From Wuchereria bancrofti (lineage: Eukaryota > Nematoda > Chromadorea > Rhabditida > Onchocercidae), in NCBI GenBank assembly GCA_005281725.1, contig SSBO01000009.1, forward strand, positions 10,783,362-10,847,361: a stretch of 64,000 bases of DNA, in the 5' to 3' direction. Made by a program: the position numbers and the translations under genes. A model generated the notes under the pieces. The model was not told the DNA's origin, did not search any database, and saw only the letters and a program-made list of their open reading frames with translations. Each line of letters opens with the position of its first letter. Positions within the stretch are counted from its first letter, which is position 1. Positions 1,696-16,957 of the stretch are shown here, one piece after another.

Positions 1696-1717
1696 GGTTT
1701 AATTACCCAAGTTTGAG
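1696..1717 (+). repeat. Exact nematode SL1 spliced-leader sequence, copy 1
   Basis: The 22 bases beginning GGTTTAATTACCC and ending AAGTTTGAG match nematode SL1 exactly. They are followed by GT, as in an SL RNA gene, but the downstream bases (gtgcggaaaaac) are not those of an SL RNA intron and no Sm-site hairpin or 5S gene is nearby. AATAAA sits directly upstream (about 1690-1695). About 32 nt separate it from copy 2. Confidence 0.95.
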
Positions 1718-1749
1718 GTGCGGAAAAACAATCGACGAACAACAACGGG

Positions 1750-1771
1750 GGTTTAATTACCCAAGTTTGAG
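1750..1771 (+). repeat. Exact nematode SL1 spliced-leader sequence, copy 2
   Basis: A second exact 22-nt SL1. It is followed directly by GTAGCTTACGATAAAGC, which opens into the Gag zinc-knuckle frame, so the leader is fused to element coding sequence. SL1's own TAA closes that frame upstream, leaving LPKFE as the leader-encoded residues. Confidence 0.95.
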
Positions 1772-2503: not shown

Positions 2504-2620
2504 GGAGGATGATACGAGAGATCGACAAAGTGTCAACACGATGAAGGAGGATGATCCGATTGCTAGACGAAAAAGGCGCGCGTTCGCGGTTGGGAGTGTC
2601 GCTAAAGACGAAGAACAAAA
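2074..2620 (+). repeat. Second copy of the integrase-tail segment (compare 762-1310)
   Basis: From 'caatgagagacgac' through the MRDQQ/TRDRQ-type tail this stretch repeats 762-1310 with point differences and small indels. The two copies lie in the same orientation about 1.3 kb apart, as expected of two inserted or recombined copies of one element. Confidence 0.75.
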
Positions 2621-3022
2621 GTGATAAAATTATAGTGATATGTACAAGGTTGTAAAATTAATAGTGTGTAGCTAACACTTTCTTTGTTTTAAATTAAATC
2701 TCCTTATACATTTACATTACTGTATTAACTGACTTTTAATCTTCTTTGTTAAATTAAATATCAATCCCTTGTATCGTAAATTAAATTCCTTCTACAATAT
2801 ACAATATTGTCTTAAACGACTTTTAATCTTCTTGTTCTCCAAATCATCCAGTAATCTCTCCCTACTTCCTTACTAAATCATCATTATAGTTTTTCTTTCT
2901 TATATGGTTGGGTCAAGGGTTCTAAAACGCTTTAGCTTTATCCTCTTATGTTATACTGTTAATTTATATAAAGAGTTGTATCTTCAAGTGATTTATATTA
3001 ATTTTTGTCTTTTAAAATTTGT

Positions 3023-3044
3023 GGTTTAATTACCCAAGTTTCAG
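3023..3044 (+). repeat. SL1 variant ending TTTCAG
   Basis: 21 of 22 bases match SL1; the change is G to C at position 20, giving TTTCAG instead of TTTGAG. It is followed by GTAATTAACAATAAAGC and a segment nearly identical to that after SL1 copy 2 (1772-1808), so the junction is shared by two element copies. Confidence 0.85.
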
Positions 3045-3084
3045 GTAATTAACAATAAAGCATCAAATTCAAAATTTCGCGACA

Positions 3085-3095
3085 CCAAGTTTGAG
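3085..3095 (+). repeat. Truncated SL1 (last 11 bases)
   Basis: CCAAGTTTGAG, the 3' half of SL1, follows 'tttcgcgaca' and precedes 'atgcggaaaaacaatcgacg'. That spacer also follows SL1 copy 1 at 1718, so this is the first half of a decayed SL1 doublet. Confidence 0.7.
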
Positions 3096-3126
3096 ATGCG
3101 GAAAAACAATCGACGATAACAATGGG

Positions 3127-3148
3127 GGTTTAAATACCCAAGTTTGAG
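3127..3148 (+). repeat. SL1 variant, second half of the second doublet
   Basis: 21 of 22 bases match SL1 (T to A at position 8). It lies after the same ~32-nt spacer as at 1718-1749. Downstream 3149-3430 is an ACGAC-rich, GC-richer stretch, perhaps element leader or LTR sequence, with no recognisable coding frame. Confidence 0.8.
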
Positions 3149-3430: not shown

Positions 3431-5433
3431 AGGGAAATTATATTTTTTCCTACAGTTCACTCTCAAAGAAAAGGTTGCTGATTTAATTTTCTTTGCTCAG
3501 CCCCATTTAAAAGCAAATTTAGTATTTCTTTCTTACTGCTCTGCTTCTTTGCGAAACAAAGTAGTTTTCCTTTTTTGATAGTTCAGATCGTTAACTTCTT
3601 TGCCTTCGATATTGGTAGATTCTCGAATTTATACATGTACTGTGGGAGTCTTCGTGAAATACTTTATTATTCAAACCTCAATAGTTATTAAGTTAAGAGA
3701 TAGTTAAGAGAGCTAGTGAAGAATAAGATTCGACAAGGATGTCTGTTGAAAAAAAACCGATATATAAAGATATTAGCAATATTGGCAAGTCAGTTCCGTG
3801 GGAAATTCTGATGAAAAATATAATTATCAAAGTTCATTGGTAGTTTTGATCTATCATTTTTATGTTTTCAGAGTTTTATATGCTACTTAATAAATGTTTT
3901 TAGAGTTTCATGTGCTACTTAATACGATGTTCAGGATGGCTATTTTCTGAAATTTCATGTCTAAAGGATTGGTTGATCATGATGATTGCTTTTAAATGTA
4001 TTATATAGAATAGAGATTATGCTTATTCTACTGCAGCAACTGTGATTACGAATTGCAGGATGAGAAATTTTTATTTCAAATATACAAGAATTTAAGTGTT
4101 ATATTTGTTATAGGAAACTTCTAACAGGATCCAAATTAGGTTAGGTGTCAGATGTATGGAAAATTGGACAGAAATCCTGGAAGCACATCTCCATAATCTA
4201 GAAAAATATGGATTTCTTATTAAGAAATGGTTTCTTTGCCAAAAAAAAAAAGAAAAAAATCTTATGAGTGAAGGAATTACTTGTAATAAACCGTTTAAAT
4301 AACTTCCTGGAAAGGTTCAGTTATTAAGAACGGCAAAGAGATATATCCTAATTCATCCACTGTATTCGATTCGATTAGCGTCATATTTACCGTTGGGCAT
4401 GCAAAATATACCGGTGCTTTGTAAGGGCGAGCATCCCAGAGAAATTCAAAAAAATTTGAGAAATAAGGTTAAGAAAGTCTAATTTGCAAATAGAAAATTG
4501 AAATATCGAAATAACTCCAAAAAAGAATGAGAGAAGTTTGAACTTGAACGCAATTCACGAAAAAAAAAATTAAAAAAGTAAAAATTCGAAAATAAAAGTT
4601 AAACATTAAAACAACAATGAAAATTTTCAGCAAACAAAAATAACGGATAAAGTAATATAAACGTAAAAAATAAACAGTAGTTGTGAAGGACTTAAAAAAC
4701 AAAAAAAAAAAAGTTATTAATAACAATTATATATCGGATCAATTAACTGATTCTTAGATGAGGTCCATATGTACTGTCAATATTAAATGGAACAAAAGTA
4801 GATGTTAGGAAGTGAAGTTTCGAGAAAGGAACCATGCCTAAATTATTCACAACATTACTTGAGTGAAAAATTAGTAAAATCTAACAATAAATTTCTAGTA
4901 AAAGTTAGCTGACCATAGAGGGTCAGTAAAGGGAACAAAATAAGAAATCAAAAAAAAAAAAAAAAAAAAAGAATGATTTCAAAGTGATTTGATCTAAAGC
5001 AAGCTATGTTCTATCTTCCAATAGCAAAATAAAAAAATTTCCTTTCATAAGCATTTTAATTTTACGCAGTCACTGCAAACGACAAATGACATGTACAAGT
5101 GTAAAACAGTTACAATCCCTTTGAAATCAATTGTTTCCACATATAAATCAAACAACAAAACTTTTCTTCGATTTTATTTCTCTCTATTTTTTGCTTTTTT
5201 AATTTTATTTCTTTGCTTTTTTTTGTTTTGCTGTCTTTTTTTAATTTTTCCGTTTTTTGTTTTCCGTATTTTTTTCTGCTTTTTTTGTTTTTTGGATTTT
5301 TTTATCCTTTTTTTTTAAATCTTTTTTTCATTTTTTCCCGTTTTTCTTTTTGCATTTTTTAACAATTTTTCCTATTTCTTTGTTTTCCGCATTTTTTCCT
5401 TTTTTCCATTTTTTTTGGTTTTATCGGCATTTT
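3431..5433. other. AT-rich intergenic DNA, no gene recognised
   Basis: No frame resembles a protein. There are A-runs at 4220-4260 and 4950-4971, and a T-rich tract at 5160-5440 that produces spurious phenylalanine-rich frames on the + strand. Confidence 0.6.
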
Positions 5434-13159: not shown

Positions 13160-16100
13160 ATGCCGGGTGCTCAATATTATGACGGTAAAAAGTTAAATAT
13201 TCCAATTTCAAAAGAGGCCGCAGTTGAACTCATTGAACGATGGATTCATCAGGGAATAAGCAGTATGATGGCTTGCATTGCCACTCAGCGGTCAGTTCGT
13301 TTTTGTCACCTTTACTCTCATGTGTGACATGAATTTAAATATAAATTTGCTTTTTGCAGATGGGTTTATCAGAAAATTTTTTGTGAACGGAAAAGAGTGA
13401 TAGAAGAAGTATAGAAAGAAATATAAAGTTTAAGATAAATAAGCATTAAATGTGTAAAATGAAACATTTCAGAGAAATGAAGACGATAAAAGAACTGAAA
13501 TTTTAATACTTCTACTTTTATTGACGGTTTCCGATTGGTGCACTACACGTTGCTGGCAATCTTCTCTTGCTTATAAAATAATTTTTCTTTTTTAAATAAA
13601 CGTTTTAGATCTAACATAGCGACACGACGGTCAGTTGTTGATTTCGGTGTCACATCCAAATATTACTTTCAGTTTAAAATTAACATTCTTTATCAGAAAA
13701 ATGTTTACTTCAGCCTAAGCAAGTTGAACGAATATGAACGGAATCGATTGCAAAAGTGTTCACAAGGTGCACAGGACATTTACGAACAGGCAAGATGTGT
13801 AGTCCGAGCCATTGATGCAAAGCCGAAACAGATGGATTCTACAAGAAGTATCGTTTCACGTCTTAGAACACACTTACGTCAACTATTAATGCAACTTTTC
13901 ACACTTTTGATGGAAGATATAATCACTTCAATACTTAAAACTTGTATTGGATGCATAATATAAGTTATTACTTAAATTGATGCTTAATTGGAGCAATTTA
14001 ATTAACATTCTTCTCTTCGTACAGTTTCCCATATGCAAAAGCTGCAAAAATTAATGGATGGAAAAAAGAAGATAGTCGGTGCTATTATCCAATCTGAATC
14101 ACATCAAATCGATTCCAATCGAAGCGAGGAAAAGGAACAGGTGGAATTCCGAACACGGCGAAGTGTAATCAATCGACACAGTTATAAGTTACATACTGAA
14201 TACGAACATTTGACACCCTTTGGCATTCTCGGCAAATACTTATCGAAGATGACAAGAGTTATTAAGAATAAGGACCCGAATTCATCGTTAGTTTTTCTTA
14301 AAACTTAACACTACGGAGAGTGAAATTGTTGTTGTGGCAAAAAAAAAAAAAAAAAAAAATATTATTTGGGAGAGGTTTGCTGATCTCAAGGGGATTTGTT
14401 TGATGTATACATAAATATTTGGAGTAATACAGGAGTATAATATTTCTTTTATTAACAGAAGCAACAGTAAAATAAAATTCACAAAGTCGAGGAGATCATT
14501 TTTTTGGTGCTACAATTGTTTTAGCCTAACATATAATGTATATTGTTGAATTGGAAGATAAATTCTTTATTAGGCTTCAAGGGTACTCACAGTCGTAATG
14601 TAAACAAAGAAAGGGAAAGGTAAATATCGAATGGGAAACAATATATAAAGGATTTACGATAAAAACATAAGATTGGAAACAAAGAATTTAAGCTATAAAC
14701 ATATTTACAGTATTGCATGCTTAAAACAAAGAGTTTATGAACGTTATTTGCGAAGGGTTCATCACCATATTTCCTACCCGCATTTTTTTAGTTTCATTTA
14801 TATTTTTTAATATGTTAGGGTTTCGCAACATTAAAATTTCGCGACAATTGTGCCAGATGAGACTGAAATGAATTAAGTAATCATTTTTAGTTCCATTTCA
14901 AAAAGAACAGTAATTTAGATGGAAGAAAACGATGTATGAAATCGAAAGTTTGAAACGACGAGAACAAGAAAAAAATGATTTTGCTGAGCAATTACAGAAA
15001 CGATTTTTATTGAATTTCAAAAATGCGGAACCAAAACTAACACCGGTGAGCATTTTTAAGCAAATTCTCGGATTGAATTCAGTAATTCTGGTAAATGGAT
15101 TGAGTCTCCTTGCTCGATTCATGTTCCAATGAATTAGTTACGATACAAAACGGAATGTTCAATCTCGAAATGTAAGACTCTCAATTTTATTTAGCAACGA
15201 ATTCTTTCAGAAAGAAAAACTCTTAGCGAAAGAATTACATATATCGAATGATCTGCAAGGTTTGGATAAAAACAATGTGAAAACAAAAAAGACTTTGGAA
15301 ATTGTTCGACTCTTTCAACGAGCAGTTAAACTTGCAATGGTTCTTAATGGTGCCAATGGTACTAAACTAGAAAATAAGACACTCAGATTTGGTTCACCTC
15401 GTCTGTTATCATTGGTACCTGACAATGTTAATGATCAGGTATGCTTACTAGACTTTGAATTATTCCGGATATTTTGAACTGTTCGCTTTTTGCACCGTTA
15501 ACCGTCTGAAGTTCATTCTTCTTAGCGATCTGCTGATTATTCACTTTGCTGATTTGGAGCAAAATAGAAAATTTTTCTTTCAGATTAGCATTTTATCTCC
15601 ATCGTTGTTGAGCATGCATGATAAAGGCAAAGGTTTAGAAGCACTAACCAGTATTCCGGAATTGTTGAAAGTTGCCGATAACAGGGATTACGAGGAATGG
15701 CTAAACTTTATTATAGAAGCATCCGGTACAAATGATGTAATACATAAATTGAAGGTCTTATTTATCAGAAGTCTTCAGTTAAACATTGTGATACCTCTTA
15801 TCAAGAGTCTTCAGTTAAGCATTCAGTTTGAGGTAATAATTTTCCGGAAAACATTCAGGAAAAAGATGAATTGGATTGGCTACCACCCGGTTATAAATCA
15901 ATGCCACGTGGAATAGACGGTCAACCGATGTTTTTTACAAAGGAAAATGTAACAGAAATTGATCCTGAATTGGCCAGGAAAGTGGAACTTTTCGAAAACT
16001 TGACACATTCACTTACGCTGAAACAGGTTGGATTGTTTTCTTCCTTTGGAAAAGATACAAAATTATTTTCAAATTACGTTCGTATTTAAAAACTATTATT

Positions 16101-16957
16101 TTTTGGTTTCGAGGTCATTACCGGCATGAGTTGCCGAAGAATGAAAATTATCAACATTTTTAATTCGACAAATTGTTTGACCACCTCAGTCAATAATATA
16201 AATACTACAGTTAATGGACTTCAATACAACCGGATTCTCGATGATGACCCCAAAGCAGCTGATGATGTTCTATGGCCCACAGTCACCTTTAAACGACAGC
16301 AAAGCGTTGGATTTCTTCTTGTCACTAAGTGAAGATGACATGCACCGTCACATCCTTAATGATATCCGTAATATGGCTAAGATGAATTCTTCCTTGAAAA
16401 TACGTCGAAAACGGCGGCAAAACATACTTATTCCATTATCTTTCAATAACAGTACTTTTTATCCAATTACAAAGCCATCCGTCTTATCACCTGTAATATT
16501 TTCACCAGTACTTTTTTCTCCCTCGATTTTTGGAGCTACTCTATTAAGTCCAAATGCATTCCTGCCCACTCTTCTCTCTCCAGCTCTCTTGAGTCCAGCT
16601 ATCCTGTCACCAAGTGCACTTTCTCCCATTATCCTATCACCGTTGGTAATCAGTTCTGGAATTCTAAGTCCTGGTGCCTTGGTACCGACTATTTTATCGC
16701 CCAGTGCATTATCACCAGGTATTTTATCACCATCTATACTTTCACCTGTTATTATGAGCCCATTTGTTCTAAACCCTTCCATCTTTTCATCATCGATACT
16801 TACCGCTCTAGTCGCGAGCCCATTTGCTTTGTCACCATCTTTTTTCTCGCCATCTTATGGCTCTGCACTAATCTTTTCACCATATGCATTCTCACCGCTC
16901 TTGAATTCAACCGGTAAAGCAGTCACTTTACTATTTTCACCCAGTGTAGGTAGTTGA
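13160..16957 (+). CDS. MLT-10-like moulting-cycle protein with C-terminal LSP repeats
   Basis: Secreted cuticle/moulting protein of the nematode-specific MLT-10 family ('Moulting cycle' domain). Exons: 13160-13290, 13714-13943, 14025-14286, 14919-15045, 15211-15438, 15584-15754, 15859-16026 and 16211-16957; all phases agree, giving about 687 residues from the ATG used here. A 21-nt in-frame microexon at 13609-13629 is possible, and an alternative acceptor at 13360 gives a short truncated frame. The N-terminal two-thirds has spaced cysteines and family-like strings (SSMMACIATQ, CSQGAQDIYEQARCVV, LTPFGILGKYLSKM, SWKKTMYEIESLKRREQ). The last exon has a basic KIRRKRRQN stretch, then about 21 copies of a roughly five-residue repeat centred on (L/F/A/M)SP, the hallmark of MLT-10 paralogues. 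The true start is probably upstream, because no signal peptide lies at 13160. Family call confident; the 5' end is not. Confidence 0.85.

Follow-up and report, generated by a model that had tools for sequence, protein, structure and literature searches.

In the genome of Wuchereria bancrofti, the 22-nt spliced leader SL1 is an encoded part of the long terminal repeats (LTRs) of BEL/Pao retrotransposons. It lies inside both LTRs of two full-length elements, target-site duplications surround a number of LTRs that contain it, unrelated U5 sequences follow it behind closely similar U3s and a mutated SL1 has been inherited by separate insertions. Judged from genomic sequence, the likely explanation is that SL1 was captured from trans-spliced element RNA, has been inherited as part of the LTR and now acts as a joint at which strand transfer exchanges LTR modules.

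SL1 Copies and BEL/Pao Remnants in the Window

The window, i.e., the whole 64-kb stretch of DNA analyzed, contains two exact copies of SL1 (GGTTTAATTACCCAAGTTTGAG, 22 nt) on the forward strand, at 1696-1717 and 1750-1771, separated by a 32-nt spacer of class D5 (1718-1749), in line with the doublet and spacer of about 32 nt described in the original prediction. The second module claimed there at 3085-3148 is likewise present on the same strand and consists of the last 11 nt of an SL1 (3085-3095), a close second copy of the spacer (3096-3126) and an SL1 with one mismatch (3127-3148). A further forward-strand copy, absent from that prediction, lies at 3023-3044, carries one mismatch and ends in TTTCAG. 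With up to three mismatches allowed, the expected number of chance matches is 0.00 and none was obtained in 100 shuffles of the window, which rules out a chance origin. Scanning the window with Rfam returned no family at gathering score: RF00198, which covers the sequence and fold of the SL RNA beyond the leader, was unmatched and no 5S rRNA match was available to link to these SL1 copies. Hence neither an SL RNA gene nor a 5S gene was found in the window and, as had been claimed, the copies do not represent an SL RNA gene or a 5S-SL unit.

These SL1 copies belong to two BEL/Pao LTRs, LTR-A and LTR-B, all parts of which are on the forward strand. Element A is represented by the 3' part of a BEL/Pao pol gene, an integrase ORF at 9-971 with PF17921 over the cut-off and PF00665 below it, and by its 3' LTR, LTR-A (1270-1811, TGTCAC...CCCGACA), which is preceded by a GGGAG tract. 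Within LTR-A, U3 (1270-1695, upstream class Ua) ends with an AATAAA poly(A) signal (1690-1695) that abuts the first SL1 copy; this copy thus directly follows U3 and, by comparison with the full-length elements L010 and L011 described below, occupies the R position. After the second SL1 copy comes a 40-nt U5 of class D4 (1772-1811) that ends in CCCGACA. Element B, apparently internally deleted, retains a short DUF5641 ORF (PF18701, 1910-2503) and LTR-B (2597-3084, TGTCGCTAAAG...CGCGACA), in which the TTTCAG-ending SL1 is followed by a 40-nt class D4 U5. The two ORFs bear out the assignment to a BEL/Pao element; the window copies hold integrase and DUF5641 parts only, Pao peptidase and reverse transcriptase domains being seen in the related L010. 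No 5' LTR of element A was found in the ~8.6 kb upstream of LTR-A. The boundaries of LTR-A and LTR-B were read from the sequence; around L019, a relative of LTR-A that carries the same doublet, there is a perfect 5-bp duplication, CGTGG. Of note, the end of LTR-B directly abuts the last 11 nt of another SL1 (3084-3095), as if the element of LTR-B had been inserted within the SL1 of another LTR.

SL1 at the Joint of U3 and U5

The anatomy of complete copies was read from two elements. L010 is a full-length BEL/Pao element with PF05380, PF00078, PF05585, PF17921 and PF18701 over the cut-off and PF00665 below it; its LTRs are 100% identical over 435 aligned bp, with SL1 345 nt into the LTR followed by ~66 nt of U5, and no matching target-site duplication was seen around it. 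The LTRs of L011 (398 bp, 99.5% identity) have the duplication GTTAC outside, with SL1 365 nt into the LTR and only 11 nt, GTTTCACGACA, behind it. SL1 thus lies between U3 and U5, i.e., in the R position, and at the same place in both LTRs of the two elements examined (2/2). At the U3 edge, the boundary is the first G of SL1.

Searching for LTR starts and ends, with the best-matching of several candidate LTR ends taken for each copy, a perfect 5-bp target-site duplication was obtained in 13 of 36 cases, which correspond to 12 different LTRs because L019 was counted twice; for L049 and L106, the LTR start was matched only weakly, with 6 edits in at most 24 letters. Among the other 23 cases, 10 have the LTR preceded by a GGGAG tract or followed by TGGGG and are sides of full-length elements, where no duplication is expected. 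The duplicated units carry U5s of class D3 (66-67 nt), the 11-nt U5, class D2 (185-189 nt), the doublet and, weakly, class D8 (44 nt). As duplications surround U3-SL1-U5 units with several kinds of U5, these combinations integrated as units. The doublet LTR recurs with 10 different 3' flanks, and the genome position lists contain nine pairs of exact SL1 copies spaced 54 nt apart; the claim that the SL1-spacer-SL1 module is inherited is supported. Other arrangements exist: the leaders of L024, L025 and L092 have two SL1 copies ~120 nt apart behind upstream class Uc, and in L024 and L092 a third, partial SL1 (CCAAGTTTGAG) follows the first.

Genome-Wide Distribution of SL1

The 86.5-Mb assembly contains 243 exact copies of SL1 (118 + 125), among which 24 are followed by GTA, 83 by GTG, 94 by GTT and 28 by A, C or T. 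The SL1 RNA family was found at nine places, seven of them over the cut-off, a lower bound with 50 candidates scored. In the true SL RNA genes L027 and L028 (123 bits), the leader is followed by GTAATTGAATG and a 5S match adjoins both, the one at L027 being cut by the end of the stretch. If GTA after the leader is general to SL RNA genes, at most 24 exact SL1 copies lie in such genes and at least 219 elsewhere. Confinement of SL1 outside SL RNA genes to the window locus is rejected by the 243 exact genomic copies, of which no more than 24 are followed by GTA. The 24 copies of GTA type and at least seven SL1 RNA places stand against 196 gene-assigned SL1 copies in Brugia malayi (PMC7181701). 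In the present assembly, the SL-5S array has possibly been collapsed.

How regularly these LTRs carry SL1 was assessed from both sides of the joint. A 108-nt U3 probe devoid of SL1, and thereby unbiased toward it, gave 40 matches of at least 93 nt, the best 40 of 154 first-look candidates having been scored, and one short match. In all 38 matches judged among these 40, SL1 came directly next (32 exact, six with one mismatch), one incomplete match and one at an assembly gap having been left out and two pairs being local duplicates. With a 70-nt probe from the D2 U5, for which 40 of 81 candidates were scored, 40/40 were identical to the probe and an exact SL1 adjoined in 33 of these 40. Among the other seven, SL1 has a single substitution in one, two substitutions in two and a one-base deletion in two; one has TTTGAG added to SL1 and one (L118) has no clear SL1. 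In L118, the sequence before the D2 U5 has no recognizable SL1 and ends in TTAGAG. The same holds for a D2 U5 on the reverse strand of the window (3490-3676), where the preceding sequence ends in ATTGAG. In these two cases (the one in the window ending at 3676), SL1 may have diverged, the joint may have been truncated or the ancestor may have been unspliced.

Near-complete Pao-peptidase loci were also considered, namely the strongest 34 of 116 matches (at least 142 of 162 positions), together with 229 of the 243 exact SL1 places. An exact SL1 on the same strand lies within 8.5 kb of 17/34 of these loci, while the other 17 have none nearby, and at six of the 34 an SL1 lies on the opposite strand. 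Among loci on large contigs, SL1 is near 13 of 26, as compared with a mean of 0.6 and a maximum of 6 in 2000 random draws. In one BEL/Pao copy, L138, the LTRs lack SL1 on the element's own strand even when five edits are allowed; its LTRs are 97% alike, it has the duplication CCCTC (read by eye) and AATAAAGG stands at the apparent counterpart of the SL1 place. With such an SL1-less copy in the same genome, SL1 looks like an acquired part of the LTR.

Probable Exchange of U5 Modules at SL1

The flanks of SL1 were sorted by signature classes, as an earlier clustering had merged unrelated AT-rich U3s. The sample comprised 137 distinct SL1 copies (up to two mismatches), mostly from the lists of exact SL1 and with GTA copies, the possible SL RNA genes, largely excluded on purpose, so that its proportions are not genome-wide estimates. 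Both sides could be classed in 126 of the 137 copies; two are SL RNA genes and nine were unclassed on at least one side. Class Ua precedes SL1 in 68 of the 137 and is followed by D1 (25), D3 (20), the 11-nt U5 (11), the doublet spacer (7), D4 (3) and others (2). The Ua U3s compared are closely similar (3.4% of cells off the majority), yet the U5s behind them are unrelated. Conversely, D4 was found behind four upstream kinds (Ua, the spacer and two more) and the spacer D5 behind both Ua and Uc. The original prediction had also proposed template switching onto host mRNAs through SL1 homology; judged by flank classes, none of the 135 sampled junctions outside SL RNA genes looks like this, and no case of host-mRNA capture via SL1 was recognized among the sampled flanks.

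On a U3 tree built from 61 of 76 Ua/Ua2 copies (identical, short, N-rich and unclassed ones dropped), whose bootstrap had not settled, the six U5 labels need 9 changes, the least possible being 5 and the mean after shuffling 33.7. This strong clustering of U5 classes indicates that exchange is only occasional. The 11-nt U5 needs four changes on this tree, at least two of them forced by well-supported branches. U5s appear, from these comparisons, to be inherited with their U3s and to be replaced now and then, with the break at SL1. When SL1 was folded together with its U5, no signal was obtained (z 0.50).

Inheritance of the Encoded Leader

Within class Ua, SL1 departs from the majority in 6/660 cells (0.9%) and U3 in 109/3240 (3.4%), a comparison made over 30 distinct sequences, with eight identical ones dropped and incomplete or gap places excluded, in which the cells of related copies are not independent. 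Singleton changes per cell amount to 0.0030 in SL1 and 0.0068 in U3, which is not a significant difference (Fisher p 0.41). Given this result and the non-independence of the cells, the figures do not demonstrate a constraint on SL1. The solo LTRs L132 and L133 have the same two substitutions in SL1, unrelated flanks and duplications of their own, GCGTG and ATGGC (by eye). Because a mutated SL1 is common to two separate insertions, SL1 is not renewed in every cycle; in this lineage, at least, the encoded SL1 was passed on with no fresh trans-spliced one. Elsewhere, at a single place (6125-6152 of L013, the same place as L123), six additional letters, TTTGAG, separate SL1 from U5; a 6-bp slippage would account for them, as would the splicing of a new SL1 to the AG within an older copy.

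Origin and Possible Role of the LTR-Encoded SL1

LTR elements require an RNA whose two ends share one sequence. In standard LTR replication, synthesis of minus-strand strong-stop DNA runs through U5 to the RNA 5' end, and the product is then transferred to the 3' end via R. A large proportion of nematode mRNAs receive a spliced leader, and trans-splicing usually threatens retroelements by removing their 5' end. In the explanation that we favor, the RNA of a BEL/Pao element would have been trans-spliced to the host SL1 and then reverse transcribed, and LTR synthesis would have joined the 5' end of this RNA (SL1 then U5) to the U3 templated by the 3' end. Since SL1 forms the 5' end of any RNA to which it has been trans-spliced, it would land between U3 and U5 from its first G onward, which matches the observed boundary. 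Of the capture into the terminal repeat that had been claimed, the location of SL1 within the LTR stands and fits reverse transcription, while the capture step itself is what we infer from it. SL1 would thereafter have been inherited as a part of the LTR. As AATAAA touches SL1 in class Ua, the RNA 3' end probably falls within SL1 or directly behind it, and SL1 would then be the repeated sequence. Several families have the same 22 nt at the place of template change, and SL1 would thereby act as an R-like joint that they have in common. Strong-stop DNA copied from one element RNA could then land on the 3' end of another and create new U3-SL1-U5 combinations, with SL1 doublets as an occasional by-product; the doublet may be read as a transfer to the run of Gs with which the spacer ends (...ACGGG followed by GGTTTAATT). 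In a wider proposal, SL1 would function as the R region for a group of nematode LTR elements, with first-strand transfer across families and with trans-splicing, instead of transcription, supplying the 5' copy at least at times; this is possible but less likely than not.

Other explanations have to be weighed against capture followed by inheritance and exchange. SL1 might be supplied anew in each cycle, host trans-splicing giving the 5' copy of R and the terminal redundancy being partly left to the SL RNA. The same 22 nt, mostly exact in a sampling led by exact copies, indeed occur across LTR classes with different U3s and U5s and start with the first G on the U3 edge, and the extra TTTGAG at L013/L123 looks as if a leader had been newly spliced into an old SL1, a 6-bp slippage fitting equally well. 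However, L132 and L133 inherited the same mutated SL1 and singleton changes in class Ua are not significantly fewer in SL1 than in U3, and we regard continual re-supply as improbable. These same singleton counts, which reveal no significant excess conservation of SL1 within the class, are what a passive passenger would give, i.e., an SL1 captured once or a few times and having no role in strand transfer, U5s changing through recombination or indels. The clustering of U5 classes on the U3 tree and the resemblance of class D1 to D5 with an internal deletion (a reading of the sequences) also agree with it. Against it, in several classes and on either side, SL1 is where shared sequence gives way to unrelated sequence, and the 11-nt U5 occurs in two U3 clades separated by well-supported branches, making a passenger unlikely.

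Finally, SL1-bearing LTRs already present in the genome might have given rise to the combinations, whether by recombination, by gene conversion or by nested insertion; the window resembles a nest of broken elements and SL1 copies are close together in places. Such an origin after integration is very improbable given the perfect 5-bp duplications that bound U3-SL1-U5 units with different U5s and a doublet LTR found with 10 different 3' flanks.

Should a host leader be able to become a terminal repeat, trans-splicing would turn from a threat into a resource and different element families would gain a common recombination point. If SL1 acts as R, every SL1-bearing RNA in the cell would share a ready-made terminal redundancy, and first-strand transfer between families would reshuffle U3 and U5 modules. 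In practical terms, an exact SL1 in filarial DNA or RNA reads is alone no proof of trans-splicing or of an SL RNA gene.

Relation to Known Systems

NeSL-1 type non-LTR elements of nematodes, likewise associated with SL1, insert into SL1 genes, in contrast to the present case of an intron-free SL1 within a BEL/Pao LTR. The original prediction had allowed for an earlier description in other nematodes, and SL1 beside PAO elements is indeed published for B. malayi: 316 SL1 signatures were reported there, 196 assigned to SL1 RNA genes and 120 outside them (Foster et al., 2020, PMC7181701). Sixty of these 120 lie within 1 kb of PAO elements, occasionally with two SL1 on one strand around an element, and the authors inferred that expressed PAO RNAs had received spliced leaders and carried them along on integration (PMC7181701). 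The same-strand proximity to half of the Pao loci (17/34 within 8.5 kb) is similar here. The differences from that account, as far as its accessible portion goes, are the position of SL1 inside the LTR at the U3/U5 joint with doublets and U5 exchange, the duplications around U3-SL1-U5 units, the inheritance of a mutated SL1 and the proposed role as R (PMC7181701). What is new here is therefore the LTR anatomy and the exchange of U5s, SL1 beside PAO being already known (PMC7181701).

Two other systems are related. RNA of Cer1, an LTR retrotransposon of the Gypsy/Ty3 type in C. elegans, is trans-spliced to SL1 at an internal acceptor; its 2.4-kb spliced mRNA exists with and without SL1 and its 8-kb RNA is apparently not trans-spliced (PMC3315495). 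Unlike the BEL/Pao LTRs described here, an LTR-encoded SL1 is not mentioned for Cer1 in the accessible portion of that work (PMC3315495). In dinoflagellate retrogenes, relict spliced leaders became a lasting part of the DNA when trans-spliced RNA was reverse transcribed (PMC12014239). As described there in the parts available, these are copies of host genes with the leader as a 5' relict and not as part of a terminal repeat as here (PMC12014239). Other descriptions of SL1 in LTRs were not found in a search conducted mainly at the level of titles and abstracts, most subscription journals and bioRxiv preprints being outside its scope.

Beyond the elements, the window also contains a host gene of the moulting-cycle family (PF04870) at 15455-16957, and its 3' piece (16214-16957) matches a protein cluster named after Wuchereria bancrofti with 100% identity over 99% of its length.
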